Shown here one piece after another: positions 14,627-21,995 of a DNA stretch of 64,000 bases. The notes beneath the pieces are model-generated. The model was not told where the DNA came from and made no database searches. It saw only the letters and a program-made list of their open reading frames with translations. Position 1 is the first letter of the stretch. Every line of letters begins with the position of its first letter. The stretch comes from Acidobacteriota bacterium (lineage in GTDB: Bacteria; Acidobacteriota; Blastocatellia; Pyrinomonadales; Pyrinomonadaceae): positions 24,975-88,974 of the forward strand of contig QHXI01000050.1 in NCBI GenBank assembly GCA_003222895.1. Direction: 5' to 3'. Both the position numbers and the translations under genes were made by a program.

Positions 14627-14671
14627 TGGACAAATTGTTCGCAGGTATTCGATAATATTCGCATACCTTCG
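14627..14671 (+). promoter_or_regulatory. lexA promoter with four 10-bp-phased TTCG direct repeats (candidate LexA operator)
   Basis: TTCG at 14638, 14648, 14658, 14668; possible -35 TGGACA 14627-14632, 18-nt spacer, -10 GATAAT 14651-14656. Confidence 0.6.
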
Positions 14672-14691
14672 TCGACTTGAGGAGATTAGAC

Positions 14692-15300
14692 ATGCCCATA
14701 ACTGCCAGACAAAGACGAGTGTTAGATTACATCAAGCATTATTTTGAAGCCCATCAGGAAGCGCCGACGATCGCCGAAATTGGAAAAGAATTCGGCATGA
14801 GTTCGTCGGCCAGCGCGCACAACTTGGTCTCGGTTCTCGAGAAGGAAGGGTTTATTAGGCGCATTCCAAACGTCAGTCGGGGAATTGAATTGATTGAAGA
14901 AGGACCGGCTGAAGAGAAGTATGAAATTCCTTTGCTCGGTGTCGTTGCCGCAGGTGCGCCGATCGAGGCGATTTTGAATTACGAGACGGTTTACATTCCA
15001 CGCGACATGATGCGCGACGGGCGAATGTTTGCGTTGCGCGTGAGCGGCGATTCAATGATTGATGAACAGATTCGTGATAACGATTTGATCATTTTGCAGT
15101 CACAGCAAACCGCCGAGAACGGCAAAACGGTGGTTGCCTTGATTGATGGAAGCGATGCGACGGTGAAGCGTTTTTATGGAAATCGAAATCATGTGCGCCT
15201 GGAGCCCGCAAATCCGAATTATGAACCAATCATCGTTCGTCCGCCGCAGCGAGTTCAGATTCAGGGCGTTATTGTCGGAGTCATTCGCCAATACAAATGA
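14692..15300 (+). CDS. lexA: LexA repressor
   Basis: MPITARQRRVLDYIKHYFEAHQEAPTIAEIGKEFGMSS HTH, AAG cleavage site (GVVAAGAPIEA), GDSM catalytic Ser, VALIDG Lys region; ATG 14692 preferred over TTG 14677 (GAGGAG SD). Confidence 0.95.
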   Translation: MPITARQRRVLDYIKHYFEAHQEAPTIAEIGKEFGMSSSASAHNLVSVLEKEGFIRRIPNVSRGIELIEEGPAEEKYEIPLLGVVAAGAPIEAILNYETVYIPRDMMRDGRMFALRVSGDSMIDEQIRDNDLIILQSQQTAENGKTVVALIDGSDATVKRFYGNRNHVRLEPANPNYEPIIVRPPQRVQIQGVIVGVIRQYK

Positions 15301-15303
15301 ATT

Positions 15304-15352
15304 GTGATTTCAAATTTGTGATCTGAGATCTGAAATCCTAATTCGTAGATCA
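15304..15352. repeat. Heptad-repeat element H1 (single arm, about 7 units)
   Basis: GTGATTT CAAATTT GTGATCT GAGATCT GAAATCC TAATTCG TAGATCA, immediately after the lexA stop. Confidence 0.6.
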
Positions 15353-15359
15353 CTAGCAG

Positions 15360-16001
15360 CTAGCTCTTTGAAAGAACGCGGGCAACCCTTTTCAGGTCAT
15401 TGATGAAGTGACGTTTCTCAGCGAGCCGGGTTTCATCATCCGGCGCGCGCAAAATTGAAGATGGATGAACAGTGGCCATGATGTAAGGCGCCAACGTCGA
15501 TTCGATGAATTGTCCCCGCTGCTTTGTGACTTTGAACTGGGGACCAAGCAAAGCCTGCGCTGCGGTCGCGCCAAGACAAACAATGACTTGTGGCTTCACT
15601 AAACTGATTTCTGCTTCGAGCCATGGGCGACAAGCATTAATCTCGCGCGCGTTAGGTTTTTTGTGAATGCGGCGTTTGCCGCGCGGTTCCCATTTGAAAT
15701 GTTTGACTACATTAGTCACGTAAGTTTGTGCGCGATCGATGCCTGCTTCCTGCAAAGCTTCATCAAGTAATCGGCCCGCTGGTCCAACGAAAGGATGGCC
15801 GGTGAGATCTTCTTCATTACCAGGTTGTTCGCCGACGAACACGACCTCAGCGTGGCGCGCGCCTTCGCCGAAAACCGTTTGCGTGCCGCGTTCCCAAAGA
15901 TCGCAAGCTTTGCAGTCCGCGGCCGCATCGCGAAAAGCTTTCAGACTTTTGCGCTCAGGGAAGAATTCTTCGGCTGAGCTTTCCGATTTATCTTTGCTCA
16001 T
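15360..16001 (-). CDS. udgX: UdgX-type uracil-DNA glycosylase (covalent uracil-DNA binding family)
   Basis: CKACDLW, GEQPGNEEDLTGHPFVGPAGRLL, FKWEPRGKRRIHKKPNAREIN (KRRIH motif), HPSSILR. Confidence 0.9.
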   Translation of the reverse strand: MSKDKSESSAEEFFPERKSLKAFRDAAADCKACDLWERGTQTVFGEGARHAEVVFVGEQPGNEEDLTGHPFVGPAGRLLDEALQEAGIDRAQTYVTNVVKHFKWEPRGKRRIHKKPNAREINACRPWLEAEISLVKPQVIVCLGATAAQALLGPQFKVTKQRGQFIESTLAPYIMATVHPSSILRAPDDETRLAEKRHFINDLKRVARVLSKS

Positions 16002-16026
16002 TAAGTTCGAATTTGCTGTTTAGATC

Positions 16027-16821
16027 ATGAATGCTGCAGTTACCAAAAAGCAGATCGAGTCAACCCTCACAGATCGTTTTGGCGACGTGTTCGAACGATT
16101 CGAACGATTGCCGCCTAAGACTCTATCCACGGGTATTGGTGAAATTGATAACGCCTTGCACGGATTTCCTCGCGGCGCGATAACGGAAATCCATGGAACT
16201 GCTTCATCCGGCCGCACGAGCCTCTTGCTTTCAGCGTTGGCTGCCGCAACTTCACAAGAAGAGATTTGCGCACTCGTCGATTGCAGCGACACGTTTGATC
16301 TTTCATCGGCGGCAAAGGCCGAGGTCGATTTCGATCGACTGCTTTGGATTCGTTGCGGCCATAATCTCGAACGTGCTTTCAAAGCTGTCGATCTAATCTT
16401 GCATGCCGGCGGATTTGGATTAGTCGCTCTGAATCTTTGCGACGTGCCGGCAAAAACCGTTCGACGGGTCATCTCCACGTGGTGGTTTCGTTTTCGCCGC
16501 GCGCTCGAAAACACTCCAAATGCGTTGATAGTCCTCACGCCCATAGCCGCCGTCCATTCGTGTGCGGCGCTTGTCTTAGAAGTTAAAAGCGAAGCTTCAG
16601 TGTGGTCCAATAGCTTGTCGTTATTATCTGAAAATCGTTACAGCAGCTTCACGGCGCAACCGGAGCACGGCGGCCATCTTTCGCTGGTGCAAACCTCCCT
16701 TCCAACATTCTCATCAAATAAGGACTCGCATTTTCTGCAAGCGATGAACATCCGCGTCAACCGCGAGCGACCGGTTGAATGGCAGACGCGCGAAATAAAA
16801 TTTAAGGCTCACTTCCACTGA
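16027..16821 (+). CDS. imuA: ImuA-like RecA-related protein of the mutasome cassette
   Basis: LSTGIGEIDNALHGFPRGAITEIHGTASSGRTSLLLSALAAAT; degenerate Walker A (Arg replaces Lys); upstream of imuB-dnaE2. Confidence 0.8.
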   Translation: MNAAVTKKQIESTLTDRFGDVFERFERLPPKTLSTGIGEIDNALHGFPRGAITEIHGTASSGRTSLLLSALAAATSQEEICALVDCSDTFDLSSAAKAEVDFDRLLWIRCGHNLERAFKAVDLILHAGGFGLVALNLCDVPAKTVRRVISTWWFRFRRALENTPNALIVLTPIAAVHSCAALVLEVKSEASVWSNSLSLLSENRYSSFTAQPEHGGHLSLVQTSLPTFSSNKDSHFLQAMNIRVNRERPVEWQTREIKFKAHFH

Positions 16822-16825
16822 CGCC

Positions 16826-16860
16826 TTGTCATATTCGCCAATATTCGCTAATATTCACCT
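16826..16860 (+). promoter_or_regulatory. imuB promoter with three 10-bp-phased TTCG/TTCA repeats (candidate LexA operator)
   Basis: TATTCGCCAA|TATTCGCTAA|TATTCACCTC; -35 TTGTCA 16826-16831, 17-nt spacer, -10 TAATAT 16849-16854. Confidence 0.6.
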
Positions 16861-16901: not shown

Positions 16902-18404
16902 ATGTTTGCCTGCATTTATGACCGAATTGTCTCTAAAACAGCTGCTACGGATTCTGAGAACGAAACTGGATTTTCGCCGCTTGTCGATCTGGCATTTACG
17001 TTTTCTCCGCTGGTTGAGCAAACCAAGGCGGACACGGTTGTGTTCGATGTTACTGGACAAGATTTGCTGTTTGGGACACACCCGAATGTTCTCGCCAATG
17101 AGTTGAATGCCCAGAACGATTCAGTGCGCAATGTCGCGGATGAAATTGCGCGTCGCGCGGCGAAACTAAATCTGAAAATTAATATCGCGATTGCGGCGAA
17201 TCCCGACGCAGCGATTCACGCCGCGCGGTGCTGTAAAGGCACGACGATTATCGACGGCGATGACGTACTGTTACATCTTGCTCCTTTGTCGATTAGAAAG
17301 TTGGATTACTCACTGGCGCGAGTTGAAGCTGACCGCGCGGAAGAAATTCAAGCGACATTCGCGCTGTGGGGTGTGTGCACGTTTGGCGATCTGGCCCGGC
17401 TACCTTTGGCCGGCGTGGCAGAACGATTGGGCCAGGATGGGGTGCGATTGCAAAAGCTTGCGCAAGGGAAGACTGATCGCCAAATACATTTGGTGCGGCC
17501 GCCAATCGGCTTTGAGCAATCGCTCGAATTAGAAGATCCGATCAGTGAACTCGAGCCGTTCTCGTTCATTCTGTCGCGTCTACTAAATCAGCTTTGCGCA
17601 AATTTGCATGAGTACGCGCTGGCCACGAATGAGTTGCGGCTGCGACTGGTCACAGAGCGATGTTTAGAGTACCGACTTCAGTCGGGTATTTCTGCTGCCA
17701 ATGAAAAAGACCCAACTGAAGTTGGTGTTCTAAACACCTGTGACCTTCACGAGCGCACAATCACTTTGCCGGTGCCGATGCGCGATCCAAAAACGCTCCT
17801 GCGTTTGCTCTTATTCGATATTGAGGCGCAACCGCCGTCTGCGCCGATCATAAAAGTCTCGATTAGCGCCCAGCCGGTGAAGCCGCGCGCGTCGCAAACC
17901 GGATTATTTATTCCGCTGGCGCCTGAGCCGGAGAAATTGGAAATCACCTTGGCGCGATTGGCGAAGTTGGTTGGCGGTGAAAATGTCGGCTCGCCGGAAA
18001 GTCTAGACGCGCACCGGCCTGATTCGTTTCGAATGAAGCGATTTAGGCTGGCGACTCAGCGAAAGAAATCACGGTCCAATCTGCAATCCGTAATTCGAAA
18101 TCCGCAATCCGTCATGGGCTTCAGAATGTTTCGACCAGCGTGGCGAGTTGATGTCGAAACTATCCAAGGGAAACCGACGCGGATTAGCGCCCGAGGACAA
18201 GCATCCACCAGGATTCGCGGACAGGTTGTTTGCGCCGCCGGGCCCTGGCGCGGGTCGGGCGACTGGTGGAGATCTGATGTGTGGGCGAGAGATGAATGGG
18301 ACGTAGCGCTGGTTGATCCTAACGCACGAGAAAGCAAAGTCATCTGTCGCATTTATCGCGATTTGACGAATGAGCAATGGTTCGTCGAAGGCATTTATGA
18401 CTGA
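16902..18404 (+). CDS. imuB: ImuB, Y-family polymerase-like protein
   Basis: MFACIY start, VVFDVTGQDLLFG, C-terminal FRPAWRVDVE; located imuA-imuB-dnaE2. Contains two repeat-derived segments. Confidence 0.9.
   Translation: MFACIYDRIVSKTAATDSENETGFSPLVDLAFTFSPLVEQTKADTVVFDVTGQDLLFGTHPNVLANELNAQNDSVRNVADEIARRAAKLNLKINIAIAANPDAAIHAARCCKGTTIIDGDDVLLHLAPLSIRKLDYSLARVEADRAEEIQATFALWGVCTFGDLARLPLAGVAERLGQDGVRLQKLAQGKTDRQIHLVRPPIGFEQSLELEDPISELEPFSFILSRLLNQLCANLHEYALATNELRLRLVTERCLEYRLQSGISAANEKDPTEVGVLNTCDLHERTITLPVPMRDPKTLLRLLLFDIEAQPPSAPIIKVSISAQPVKPRASQTGLFIPLAPEPEKLEITLARLAKLVGGENVGSPESLDAHRPDSFRMKRFRLATQRKKSRSNLQSVIRNPQSVMGFRMFRPAWRVDVETIQGKPTRISARGQASTRIRGQVVCAAGPWRGSGDWWRSDVWARDEWDVALVDPNARESKVICRIYRDLTNEQWFVEGIYD
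17661..17736. repeat. In-frame palindromic element inside imuB (TGTTTAG...CTAAACA ends)
   Basis: TGTTTAGAGTACCGACTTCAGTCGGGT ... ACCCAACTGAAGTTGGTGTTCTAAACA, about 27-bp imperfect inverted repeat. Confidence 0.8.
18077..18118. repeat. Heptad-repeat element H2 inside imuB
   Basis: CAATCTG CAATCCG TAATTCG AAATCCG CAATCCG TCATGGG; encodes SNLQSVIRNPQSVM. Confidence 0.75.
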
Positions 18405-18517
18405 AAGTCAGTAGTTAGTAGTCAGTAGTTAGTTGAAAAGGAAATGCACACTGGTATCAAAAATGAATCAAAACAAGAAGCGCAACTGCTTACTGCTCAT
18501 CGCTCACTGCCCACTTA
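18405..18517. repeat. Heptad hairpin element H3 spanning the imuB-dnaE2 junction
   Basis: Arm 1 AAGTCAG TAGTTAG TAGTCAG TAGTTAG; arm 2 CAACTGC TTACTGC TCATCGC TCACTGC CCACTTA. Confidence 0.8.
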
Positions 18518-21500
18518 TATAGAACTCCATGCGCGATCAGCATTCAGTTTTCTTCGCGGCGCAGCGACGCCGGAAGAATTAATCGCTGTGTGCTCCGAAT
18601 TAAAGATGCCGGCGATGGCATTGCTTGATACTGATGGAATTTATGGCGCGGCGCGATTTCATCTGGCGGGCAAGAAGCTGAAGATCAAAGCGCACATTGG
18701 AGCGGAGATAACAGTTTCGAGTTTCAAGTTTCAAGTTTCAAGTTCGCAGCAGAGGAATGGCCATCGGAATTCAAAACTCAAAATTCACAATTCACAATCC
18801 GTATTCACCCTTCCGCTCCTCGTTCGTAATCGCGCGGGTTATCAAAACCTTTGCCGGCTGATCACCTTGATGAAGCTGCGCGTGCCGAAACATGCAAAGC
18901 CGGGCGAGTGTGCAGTGACTTTCGATGAGTTGGCGAAGTACGCGGATGGGTTGGTTTGCTTGACTGGTGCAGATGATGGGCCGTTGTTCACAAATTGTTT
19001 AGGCGCGAGCGTTGCTAGTTCAAAAGGCGGGCAGCGCCCGCCGCTAAACTTTGGCGAAGCACAACAAACAGCTGAGAGGCTTGTCGACATTTTCGGCAGA
19101 GAGAACGTCTATGCTGAGCTGCAACGTCACTTCAATCGTAATGAAGAAGTACGCAATCACGCGGTGATCGACATGGCGCGGCGCTTGAAACTTTCGTTGT
19201 TGGCGACGAATGGAGTTTATTATGCCGCGCGCGCTCAGCGGCAAGTTGCCGACGTGTTCACCTGCATTCGCAATCATGTACGCCTGGAAACCGCCGGACG
19301 ATTGCTGTCGATTAATTCAGAGCGGTTCGTGAAATCGCCGAAAGAGATGGCCGAATTGTTTGCTGATCTGCCGGAAGCGATCGCGAACACGGTCGAACTG
19401 TCTTCACGTCTGGATTTCACGCTGAAGGATCTCGGTTACGAATTTCCGAAGTATCCAGTGCCGCCGGGCGAGACGATGACTTCGTTTTTGCGCGCGCGAA
19501 CTTATGAAGGCGCGCGTTTGCGTTACGGCGGCAACGACGAATACGCGCGTGCAGAAAAACAGATCGAGCATGAATTGAAATTGATCGAGAAGTTGAAACT
19601 CGAAGGTTATTTTCTGATCGTTTGGGACATCGTCGAGTTTTGTAAGCGACAAGGAATTTTGATTCAAGGGCGTGGATCGGCGGCGAACAGCGCCGTCTGC
19701 TATTCGCTTGGAATTACCGCGGTCGATCCGGTGGGGATGGAACTTTTGTTCGAACGTTTTCTTTCCGAAGAACGTGGCGAATGGCCGGACATCGATCTCG
19801 ATCTACCCAGCGGCGATCAGCGCGAGCGCGCTATTCAATATGTTTACGAGCGCTACGGAAAACTCGGTGCGGCAATGACGGCGAACGTGATCACTTATCG
19901 CGGTCGATCGGCTGCGCGTGAAGTCGGCAAGGTGCTTGGGTTTGATGAAGAGACGCTCGGGTGTTTATCAGGCTTTGTGCATACATGGGAATGGAAAGAT
20001 CCGAAAGACACGACAGAACGTCAGTTCAAAGAAGCCGGTTTGGACTTGCGCGATCGACGCATCAAGAAATTTTTCCAGCTTTATCGCGCCGTGCAGGATC
20101 TGCCGCGTCACCTGGGCCAACATTCCGGCGGCATGGTGATTTGTCAGGGACAGCTTGATTCGGTGGTGCCGCTCGAGCCGGCGGCGATGCCGGGCCGCGT
20201 CGTCGTGCAATGGGACAAAGAAGATTGCGCCGATCTCGGAATCATCAAGGTCGATCTGCTCGGACTTGGCATGATGGCGGTGCTCGAAGAAACGATTCAA
20301 ATCATTCGCGACGATTACACGGAAGAAGTTGATCTTGCGCATCTCCCGCAAGACGACCCCGCCGTTTATTCCGCGCTGCAACAAGCCGACACGATTGGCA
20401 TGTTTCAGATTGAGAGCCGCGCACAGATGTCTTGTCTTCCGCGGCTGCGTCCAGAAAGCTTTTACGACATCGTGGTGCAGGTGGCGATCATCCGGCCTGG
20501 TCCAATCGTCGGCAACATGGTCAATCCTTATTTAGAGCGACGACTGGGGCGCGCACCGGTGAAGTACGCGCATCCGGATCTGGAGCCGGTGCTAAAGCGG
20601 ACGCTTGGCGTGCCTCTGTTTCAGGAACAACTTTTAAAGATGGCGATGATCTGCGCGAACTTCACCGGCGGGGAAGCCGAAGAGTTGCGCCGCGCGATGG
20701 GCTTCAAACGATCAGAGCAACGAATGAAAGACATTGAAAGAAAACTACGGCGCGGAATGACAGAGAAGGGAATCACGGACCGAGTACAGGATGAGATCGT
20801 GGATCAGATTGCATCGTTCGCGCTTTATGGTTTTCCCGAATCGCACGCGGCCAGCTTTGCCTTGATTGCTTACGCCAGCGCGTATCTCAAATGCCATTAC
20901 CTGGCGGCATTCACAGCGGCGACGCTCAACAATCAACCGATGGGGTTCTATCAGCCATTTACGATCATTAAAGATGCGCAGCGCCATGGATTGAAAGTTC
21001 TTCCGGTTGATGTGACGCGATCGAATTGGGAATGTGCTCTGGAAGACGGGAGTCAGGAGTCAGGAGTCAGGAGTAAGGAAGGCAGAGATCAAAGATCAGA
21101 GGTCAGAGGTCAGGAAAGCAGGGGGCAGGAGCCAGGAGCCAGGAGTTGGGGAAACACATCTGCCTCCCGACTCTCAGCTCCCGATCCCGCGCTTCGCTTG
21201 GGCTTGCTCTGTGTCAAAGGCTTGCGTGAAGAAGCGGGCCGCGCGATTGTGCGCGCGCGATCTGAGCAACCGTTTTCCAATCTCGATGATCTGCACCGGC
21301 GCGTGCCGGAGTTGAGAAAAGATGAATTGCGAAAGTTGGCGGCAGTCGGGGCTTTGAATTTTATAGAGCAGGGGGTAGGGGATAGGGGGAAGGGTGTAGA
21401 AAGAAAAACTGACTTTGCATCCGACGCTAGTGCTGTCGAATTGAATCATCACACTAGTATCTCCCAACTCCCTAACATTCATCGTCGCGATGCGCTCTGG

Positions 21501-21995
21501 CAAGTCGAACGCGTTTCGCGCGAGCCGGGGCCGTTGTATGAAACTCTCGAAGAGACTGGCGGCTCGCCGCTTCAGTCGATGAGTGTGAATGAAAGATTGA
21601 ATGCGGACTTACGCGGCACCGGCATTACGATTGGCCGCCATCCGATGGCGCATCAACGGGCGTGGCTCAATACGATGAACGTAACGCGCGCAGGTGAATT
21701 AAAAAACATGCGAAATGGAATGTGGGTGAAAGTCGCAGGTTGGGTAATCGTGCGACAACGGCCCGGGACGGCTAAAGGGTTTGTATTTTTGAGCCTCGAA
21801 GACGAAACGGGAATCGCGAACATAATCGTGACACCGCAACTTTTCGAAACCAATCGACAGCCACTCGTCAATTCCCCATTTCTGCTGATCGAAGGAGTCT
21901 TACAACATCAGGACAACGTCGTTTCAGTGAAAGCGAGACGCATCGAGCCGCTACAGATGAAAGTCGAAAGCGTCGGATCGCATGACTTTCATTAA
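18444..21995 (+). CDS. dnaE2: Error-prone DNA polymerase III alpha subunit DnaE2
   Basis: YIELHARSAFSFLRGA PHP motif, IQGRGSAANSAVCYSLGIT, PDIDLDLPSGDQRERAI, GLPRHLGQHSGGMVI-like region; 1183 aa with several repeat-derived insertions; true start uncertain. Confidence 0.93.
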   Translation: MHTGIKNESKQEAQLLTAHRSLPTYIELHARSAFSFLRGAATPEELIAVCSELKMPAMALLDTDGIYGAARFHLAGKKLKIKAHIGAEITVSSFKFQVSSSQQRNGHRNSKLKIHNSQSVFTLPLLVRNRAGYQNLCRLITLMKLRVPKHAKPGECAVTFDELAKYADGLVCLTGADDGPLFTNCLGASVASSKGGQRPPLNFGEAQQTAERLVDIFGRENVYAELQRHFNRNEEVRNHAVIDMARRLKLSLLATNGVYYAARAQRQVADVFTCIRNHVRLETAGRLLSINSERFVKSPKEMAELFADLPEAIANTVELSSRLDFTLKDLGYEFPKYPVPPGETMTSFLRARTYEGARLRYGGNDEYARAEKQIEHELKLIEKLKLEGYFLIVWDIVEFCKRQGILIQGRGSAANSAVCYSLGITAVDPVGMELLFERFLSEERGEWPDIDLDLPSGDQRERAIQYVYERYGKLGAAMTANVITYRGRSAAREVGKVLGFDEETLGCLSGFVHTWEWKDPKDTTERQFKEAGLDLRDRRIKKFFQLYRAVQDLPRHLGQHSGGMVICQGQLDSVVPLEPAAMPGRVVVQWDKEDCADLGIIKVDLLGLGMMAVLEETIQIIRDDYTEEVDLAHLPQDDPAVYSALQQADTIGMFQIESRAQMSCLPRLRPESFYDIVVQVAIIRPGPIVGNMVNPYLERRLGRAPVKYAHPDLEPVLKRTLGVPLFQEQLLKMAMICANFTGGEAEELRRAMGFKRSEQRMKDIERKLRRGMTEKGITDRVQDEIVDQIASFALYGFPESHAASFALIAYASAYLKCHYLAAFTAATLNNQPMGFYQPFTIIKDAQRHGLKVLPVDVTRSNWECALEDGSQESGVRSKEGRDQRSEVRGQESRGQEPGARSWGNTSASRLSAPDPALRLGLLCVKGLREEAGRAIVRARSEQPFSNLDDLHRRVPELRKDELRKLAAVGALNFIEQGVGDRGKGVERKTDFASDASAVELNHHTSISQLPNIHRRDALWQVERVSREPGPLYETLEETGGSPLQSMSVNERLNADLRGTGITIGRHPMAHQRAWLNTMNVTRAGELKNMRNGMWVKVAGWVIVRQRPGTAKGFVFLSLEDETGIANIIVTPQLFETNRQPLVNSPFLLIEGVLQHQDNVVSVKARRIEPLQMKVESVGSHDFH
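18713..18803. repeat. Heptad hairpin element H4 inside dnaE2
   Basis: Arm 1 AGTTTCG AGTTTCA AGTTTCA AGTTTCA AGTTCGC; arm 2 AATTCAA AACTCAA AATTCAC AATTCAC AATCCGT; boundaries approximate. Confidence 0.8.
18996..19050. repeat. In-frame palindromic element inside dnaE2 (TGTTTAG...CTAAAC ends)
   Basis: TGTTTAGGCGCGAGCG...GGCGGGCAGCGCCCGCCGCTAAACT; encodes CLGASVASSKGGQRPPLN. Confidence 0.65.
21048..21188. repeat. Heptad hairpin element H5 inside dnaE2 (longest)
   Basis: GGAGTCA x3, GGAGTAA, ... AGAGGTC x2 ... CAGGAGC x2, CAGGAGT; arm 2 TGCCTCC CGACTCT CAGCTCC CGATCCC. Confidence 0.85.
21368..21478. repeat. Heptad hairpin element H6 inside dnaE2
   Basis: Arm 1 GCAGGGG GTAGGGG ATAGGGG GAAGGGT GTAGAAA; arm 2 ATCTCCC AACTCCC TAACATT. 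Confidence 0.65.

Follow-up and report, generated by a model that had tools for sequence, protein, structure and literature searches.

Tandem TTCG repeats as a candidate LexA operator at lexA2 and imuB in the Pyrinomonadaceae (Acidobacteriota)

The LexA box of Acidobacterium capsulatum, a member of the same phylum as the genome studied here, is reportedly GTTC-N7-GTTC. A box of this form is described for the alphaproteobacteria (Caulobacter and others), where LexA recognizes a direct repeat (PMC9578287, PMC3323433), and an independent LexA direct repeat, TTACACATATTTTWTACATA, is supported by EMSA in the Balneolaeota, where the regulon includes recA (PMC7739468). A second lexA is tied to an imu cassette in the lexA2-imuA-imuB-imuC operon of Pseudomonas putida, where it mediates damage induction (PMC5261740), and a lexA travels with the mutagenesis genes in the lexA-imuY-imuB-C-dnaE2 cassette of Deinococcus; the LexA of D. 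radiodurans does not control recA (PMC8072749). The literature search found no paper joining LexA, SOS and Blastocatellia.

The stretch of DNA analyzed here (64 kb, hereafter the window) belongs to a genome, G000, whose 4.77-Mb assembly is 96% complete and consists of 167 contigs; its placement in the Pyrinomonadaceae follows from named members of that family. It carries a lexA gene, lexA2, followed by a glycosylase-like gene on the opposite strand and then by imuA, imuB and dnaE2 on the strand of lexA2 (Table 1). The LexA2 protein matches TIGR00498 with 192 bits, above the curated cut-off of 110.95, and its AAG cleavage site (A87-G88) and S121/K159 dyad are invariant in the LexA2 alignment. 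With only 40 bp between the end of imuB and its own start, dnaE2 is likely to be on the same transcript as imuB. The intervening gene, which we take to be a uracil-DNA glycosylase of the family 4/5 type by sequence recognition only, is either a bystander or a member of the cassette.

Table 1. Features of the lexA2-imuA-imuB-dnaE2 locus, in window coordinates.
Feature	Position	Strand	Basis or detail
Putative lexA2 promoter	14627..14656	+	-35 TGGACA 14627-14632, 18 bp, -10 GATAAT 14651-14656; from sequence
lexA2 operator (candidate)	14636..14671	+	Four head-to-tail TTCG half-sites at 14638, 14648, 14658, 14668; period 10
lexA2, LexA repressor, 202 aa, wHTH + S24 peptidase	14692..15300	+	TIGR00498, PF01726, PF00717
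Probable uracil-DNA glycosylase (family 4/5 type)	15360..16001	-	ORF; convergent to lexA2, divergent to imuA
imuA (RecA/SulA-like ATPase domain)	16027..16821	+	PF00154 54 bits; NF033429 ImuA 48 bits, below its cut-off
Putative imuB-dnaE2 promoter	16826..16854	+	-35 TTGTCA 16826-16831, 17 bp, -10 TAATAT 16849-16854; from sequence
imuB operator (candidate)	16832..16857	+	TTCG 16834, TTCG 16844, TTCA 16854; period 10
imuB (Y-family polymerase homologue)	16902..18404	+	Weak Pol IV model matches; gene order imuA-imuB-dnaE2; orthologues in genus
dnaE2 (error-prone C-family polymerase)	18444..21995	+	NF004225 1201 bits, cut-off 939

An earlier sequence-only reading of this DNA had placed four TTCG words at an exact 10-bp period upstream of lexA, overlapping a -35/-10 pair, and both the positions and the promoter hexamers are as it gave them. 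Nowhere else in the 64-kb window, on either strand, do three or more TTCG follow one another at period 10. In the 150 bp upstream of the gene, a run of four at this period arose in 0 of 20,000 dinucleotide shuffles and a run of three arose 4 times in 20,000; when any 4-mer at any period from 8 to 13 was counted, four copies appeared in 0 of 3,000, and the array therefore remains exceptional even without fixing the word and the period. The imuB array sits in the gap that separates imuA from imuB, and the promoter hexamers that it was said to overlap are likewise present, but the three repeats listed there need restating: three TATTC words do recur at period 10, but their starts are 16832, 16842 and 16852, each two bases ahead of the position given, and the third site reads TTCA. 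When the 150 bp ahead of imuB were shuffled in the same way, three TATTC at this period turned up in 0 of 20,000 trials. Counting any 4-mer at any period from 8 to 13, however, gave at least three copies in 48 of 3,000 shuffles, and the imuB array on its own is thus only moderately unusual without the lexA array as a prior.

The arrays were compared across relatives in the Pyrinomonadaceae genera g1, g9 and g29. A TTCG-N6-TTCG pair (distance 10) overlaps the promoter elements in 21/21 of the lexA2 promoters sampled and in 14 of the 15 imuB promoters; the imuB promoter of G068 is without the array. An alignment anchored on the repeat gave the consensus TTCGnnAATnTTCG at both lexA2 and imuB, with flanks averaging 0.42–0.43 bits per column and spacers 1.43 and 1.19, the 2.0 bits at TTCG itself following from the anchoring. 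The phylogenetic footprinting that had been suggested as a check thus favors the arrays, as the pair has been kept whilst the flanks have diverged, and at the level of sequence they are confirmed as a strong footprint and a real operator family. The third and fourth TTCG copies follow at a step of 10, or of 11 in g9, g29 and G045.

Promoter-like elements accompany the arrays in relatives: at the lexA2 promoters nGACA or TTGACG is common at -35 and TAAT at -10, and most imuB promoters have TTGACA or TTGACG at -35 and TAATnT at -10, the array mostly following directly after TTGACA. The TAAT part of the conserved spacer is probably the -10 itself, a coincidence that would suit a reading in which the repeats have no operator function and are ordinary promoter sequence, with an A/T-rich -10 and phased T tracts, or what is left of a dispersed repeat. 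Some relatives are indeed rich in a dispersed family, TTCGTGTnnnTTCGTGTGATTTCG, whose TTCG words recur every 10 bp, and triple-TTCG matches number 147 in G079 and 110 in G082, most of those listed being of this type. The TTCG steps of the arrays, however, lie outside the -35 and -10 and are kept while the flanks diverge, and the same array stands at two separate promoters per genome in three genera. G000 has only four triple-TTCG matches in total, of which two are the lexA array, and the spacers differ (TTCGnnAATnTTCG versus TTCGTGTnnn), making it highly unlikely that the arrays are promoter sequence or repeat remnants.

The arrangement differs somewhat between genera. In g9, lexA2 and imuA are divergent and the intergenic operator is common to both, and in g1 imuA has no recognized array of its own. 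Between lexA2 and imuA in g9 and g29 (L107-L116), the direct repeat has an inverted one, TTTTCG-N8-CGAAAA, beside it, which may serve the divergent imuA promoter. Since this inverted repeat lies within the lexA2 promoter of g9, a palindromic mode of binding could be usable there. A palindromic reading of the common element was rejected, as no conserved CGAA partner is found at lexA of g1 or at imuB.

The genome encodes two LexAs, LexA2 and LexA1 (contig C134:24722-25330), which are 39% identical, LexA1 being a full LexA present in many Pyrinomonadaceae. The lexA named in the earlier reading is therefore a second, cassette-linked paralogue, adjoining imuA-imuB-dnaE2 in the genus of G000 and in g9. 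Among the 29 genera sampled, LexA2-type proteins (at least 54% identity) and strong ImuB matches both occur in g1, g9 and g29, and they coincide in 20 genomes, with one unmatched on each side. The presence of LexA1, and of a second LexA likewise in relatives, raises the possibility that LexA1, which could in principle bind the array, or an unrelated damage regulator co-controls lexA2 and imuB. This is unlikely, given that the 4-kb LexA1 locus of G000 contains no TTCG-N6-TTCG or TTCG-N7-TTCG pair, that the recA core promoters of relatives do not either, and that the core differs from genus to genus along with the cassette-linked LexA. Inspection by eye of LexA1 upstream regions revealed no clear repeat.

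To gauge the extent of the regulon, 12 genomes were scanned for TTCGnnAATnTTCG and 17 for triple TTCG arrays of period 10. G000 contains three exact copies of TATTCGN4TATTCG: one at lexA, one at imuB and one inside a coding frame. In G000 and in its complete sister G002, lexA2 and imuB are the only promoter-located triple arrays, the other fetched matches being mostly within coding frames, and searches for additional targets, exact or allowing one mismatch, returned almost only coding matches. Leads with TTCGATAATGTTCG in G030, G045 and G002 were discarded because they are inside coding frames. A match in G000 (C122:13540, TATTCGATAATAATCG) was set aside because no clear repair gene comes after it among the frames listed. 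The dispersed repeat TTCGTGTnnnTTCGTGTGATTTCG occurs in G079, G082, G030, G053 and G076 and is nearly absent from G000; a different dispersed element, about GCCATnnGGCGGAGnnTAGCATTTTCGsTAATTTTCGCCAATC...TGTGCCATTTATGGCACAA, containing TTCGnTAATTTTCG, was seen at L258, L262, L264 and L266.

The motif had also been expected upstream of recA and uvrA as part of an SOS-wide LexA operator, and LexA often regulates both genes in other phyla (PMC3323433). In 13 relatives no recA core promoter contains it, the nearest thing being a stray pair of TTCG that stands, in one relative, 275 bp ahead of the RecA domain match. Upstream of uvrA, in six genomes, there are likewise no two TTCG spaced by 10 or 11. 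For recA the comparison covers relatives, the gene being missing from the G000 assembly. Together with genome scans that returned no further promoter arrays, although weak two-site operators could be missed by such scans, this makes a general SOS box covering recA, uvrA and other repair genes very unlikely. The original proposal therefore survives in part: the sequence-only reading would have abandoned the operator if the motif were both missing from recA and other SOS genes and not conserved, and it is missing from recA and uvrA yet strongly conserved at lexA2 and imuB. As the arrays are restricted to these two promoters, they suggest the operator of a LexA dedicated to the cassette as opposed to a general SOS box, in keeping with a small regulon limited to the cassette. 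In several organisms LexA regulates no unit other than the imu cassette (PMC3323433).

No full recA match was found in the assemblies of G000, G053 and G065 (fragments or ImuA only), which is probably an assembly gap. The recA promoters of the 13 relatives share a different conserved block, about TTGCAnGnnTGAAACACTGTTCCATTC, and in their recA loci (L119-L131) the conserved promoter block has a near-palindrome, TGAAACACTGTTCCA, that overlaps a likely -35 some 100–150 bp ahead of the RecA domain match. This is possibly a recA-specific damage operator of the Pyrinomonadaceae. As a LexA1 box it was rejected, since an exact copy is found only at recA in the genomes listed and no regulon emerged.

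Taken as operators, the TTCG arrays very probably belong to the adjacent LexA2, which would repress lexA2 and imuB-dnaE2 until released by damage-triggered self-cleavage. This reading builds on features observed directly, namely the arrays, their conservation, promoter position and restriction to two promoters, the co-occurrence with LexA2, and the intact cleavage motifs. From these we infer that LexA2 binds with its winged-helix domains reading head-to-tail TTCG half-sites one helical turn (10 bp) apart, a spacing that would place all half-sites on one face of the DNA, across the -35/-10 spacer and the -10. When a symmetric dimer binds direct repeats, one DNA-binding domain is turned relative to the other, as for alphaproteobacterial LexA. 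By this geometry and stoichiometry a LexA2 dimer would occupy two neighboring half-sites, and three to four in a row would allow overlapping registers or cooperative binding. Bound LexA2 would exclude RNA polymerase and so repress lexA2 and imuB-dnaE2, and induction would follow when DNA damage leads to RecA-stimulated self-cleavage of LexA2 at A87-G88, releasing error-prone synthesis.

More distant LexAs show that the core and spacing vary. The cassette-linked LexAs of genera g16, g17 and g13 are 39–47% identical to LexA2, and their own lexA promoters have tandem repeats of TTCC at period 10 (g16), TRTCC at period 11 (g17) and TTCC at 12/10 (g13). Their imuB genes have no comparable array, which is consistent with one transcript. 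In the recognition helix, the residue at LexA2 position 43 is His in all owners of TTCG shown and Tyr in the TTCC and TRTCC owners; because the latter form one clade, this counts as one correlated change with the core and not as proof. The LexA tree, made by a quick method, supports the LexA2 subgroups and not their deeper placement. A tentative extension, which we consider possible but doubtful, is that LexA2, instead of binding as one dimer on two half-sites, assembles cooperatively head to tail over three to four TTCG sites along a single face of the DNA, with the core drifting within the family (TTCG, TTCC, TRTCC) together with His43/Tyr whilst the one-turn geometry is kept. If true, this would represent an oligomeric mode of LexA operator.

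Outside the family, TTCG-N7-TTCG precedes lexA in 16/16 Gemmatimonadota (from the L154-L204 set, Gemmatimonadota and others), often as two pairs 15 bp apart, in 5/10 of a Myxococcota/deltaproteobacterial set and in 2/3 Krumholzibacteriia, and in a Vicinamibacteria-like acidobacterial set TTCGC-N6-TTTGC is upstream of lexA in 11/12. TTCG-N7-TTCG is thus the apparent direct-repeat LexA box of Gemmatimonadota, of which no description was found in the literature searched, and judging by sequence these repeats upstream of lexA keep to the direct-repeat logic of the alphaproteobacterial box, TTCG being their core.

The lexA2 array resembles the alphaproteobacterial box in being a LexA direct repeat with half-sites about one helical turn apart and a close core, and the head-to-tail logic proposed from sequence is seen in 21/21 lexA2 promoters. 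It differs in its period of 10 and not 11 (the core pair is 10 bp in every lexA2 promoter, the outer step 11 in 14 promoters), its three to four tandem half-sites, its TTCG core (the preceding base varying among A, G, C and T in place of a fixed GTTC), its conserved spacer TAAT, and its cassette-dedicated second LexA. Of the "different period and core" claimed previously, the 10-bp period stands, but the core is less foreign than supposed: because TTCG-N7-TTCG precedes the related lexA genes of Gemmatimonadota (period 11) and some Myxococcota, the novelty lies mainly in the 10-bp period and the tandem three- to four-site array. The Balneolaeota repeat is likewise direct, with a core unrelated to TTCG (PMC7739468). 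As to gene organization, lexA2 is co-transcribed with the cassette in P. putida (PMC5261740), whereas in the acidobacterium lexA2 and imuB are each served by a putative promoter and an array of their own; the Deinococcus cassette, of different gene order and organism, is likened by gene content (PMC8072749).

With the arrays, a large group of soil Acidobacteriota gains a candidate LexA operator, the literature search having returned no account of an SOS response in that group, and they point to mutagenesis genes that a LexA of their own would keep apart from recA. The series of related LexAs with 10- or 11-bp direct repeats and changed cores may help in studying how half-sites laid head to tail are recognized by a symmetric repressor, and how repressor and operator evolve together. 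Against the described systems, the direct-repeat LexA operator is known, and what is new is the 10-bp period, the TTCG core and the three to four tandem half-sites.
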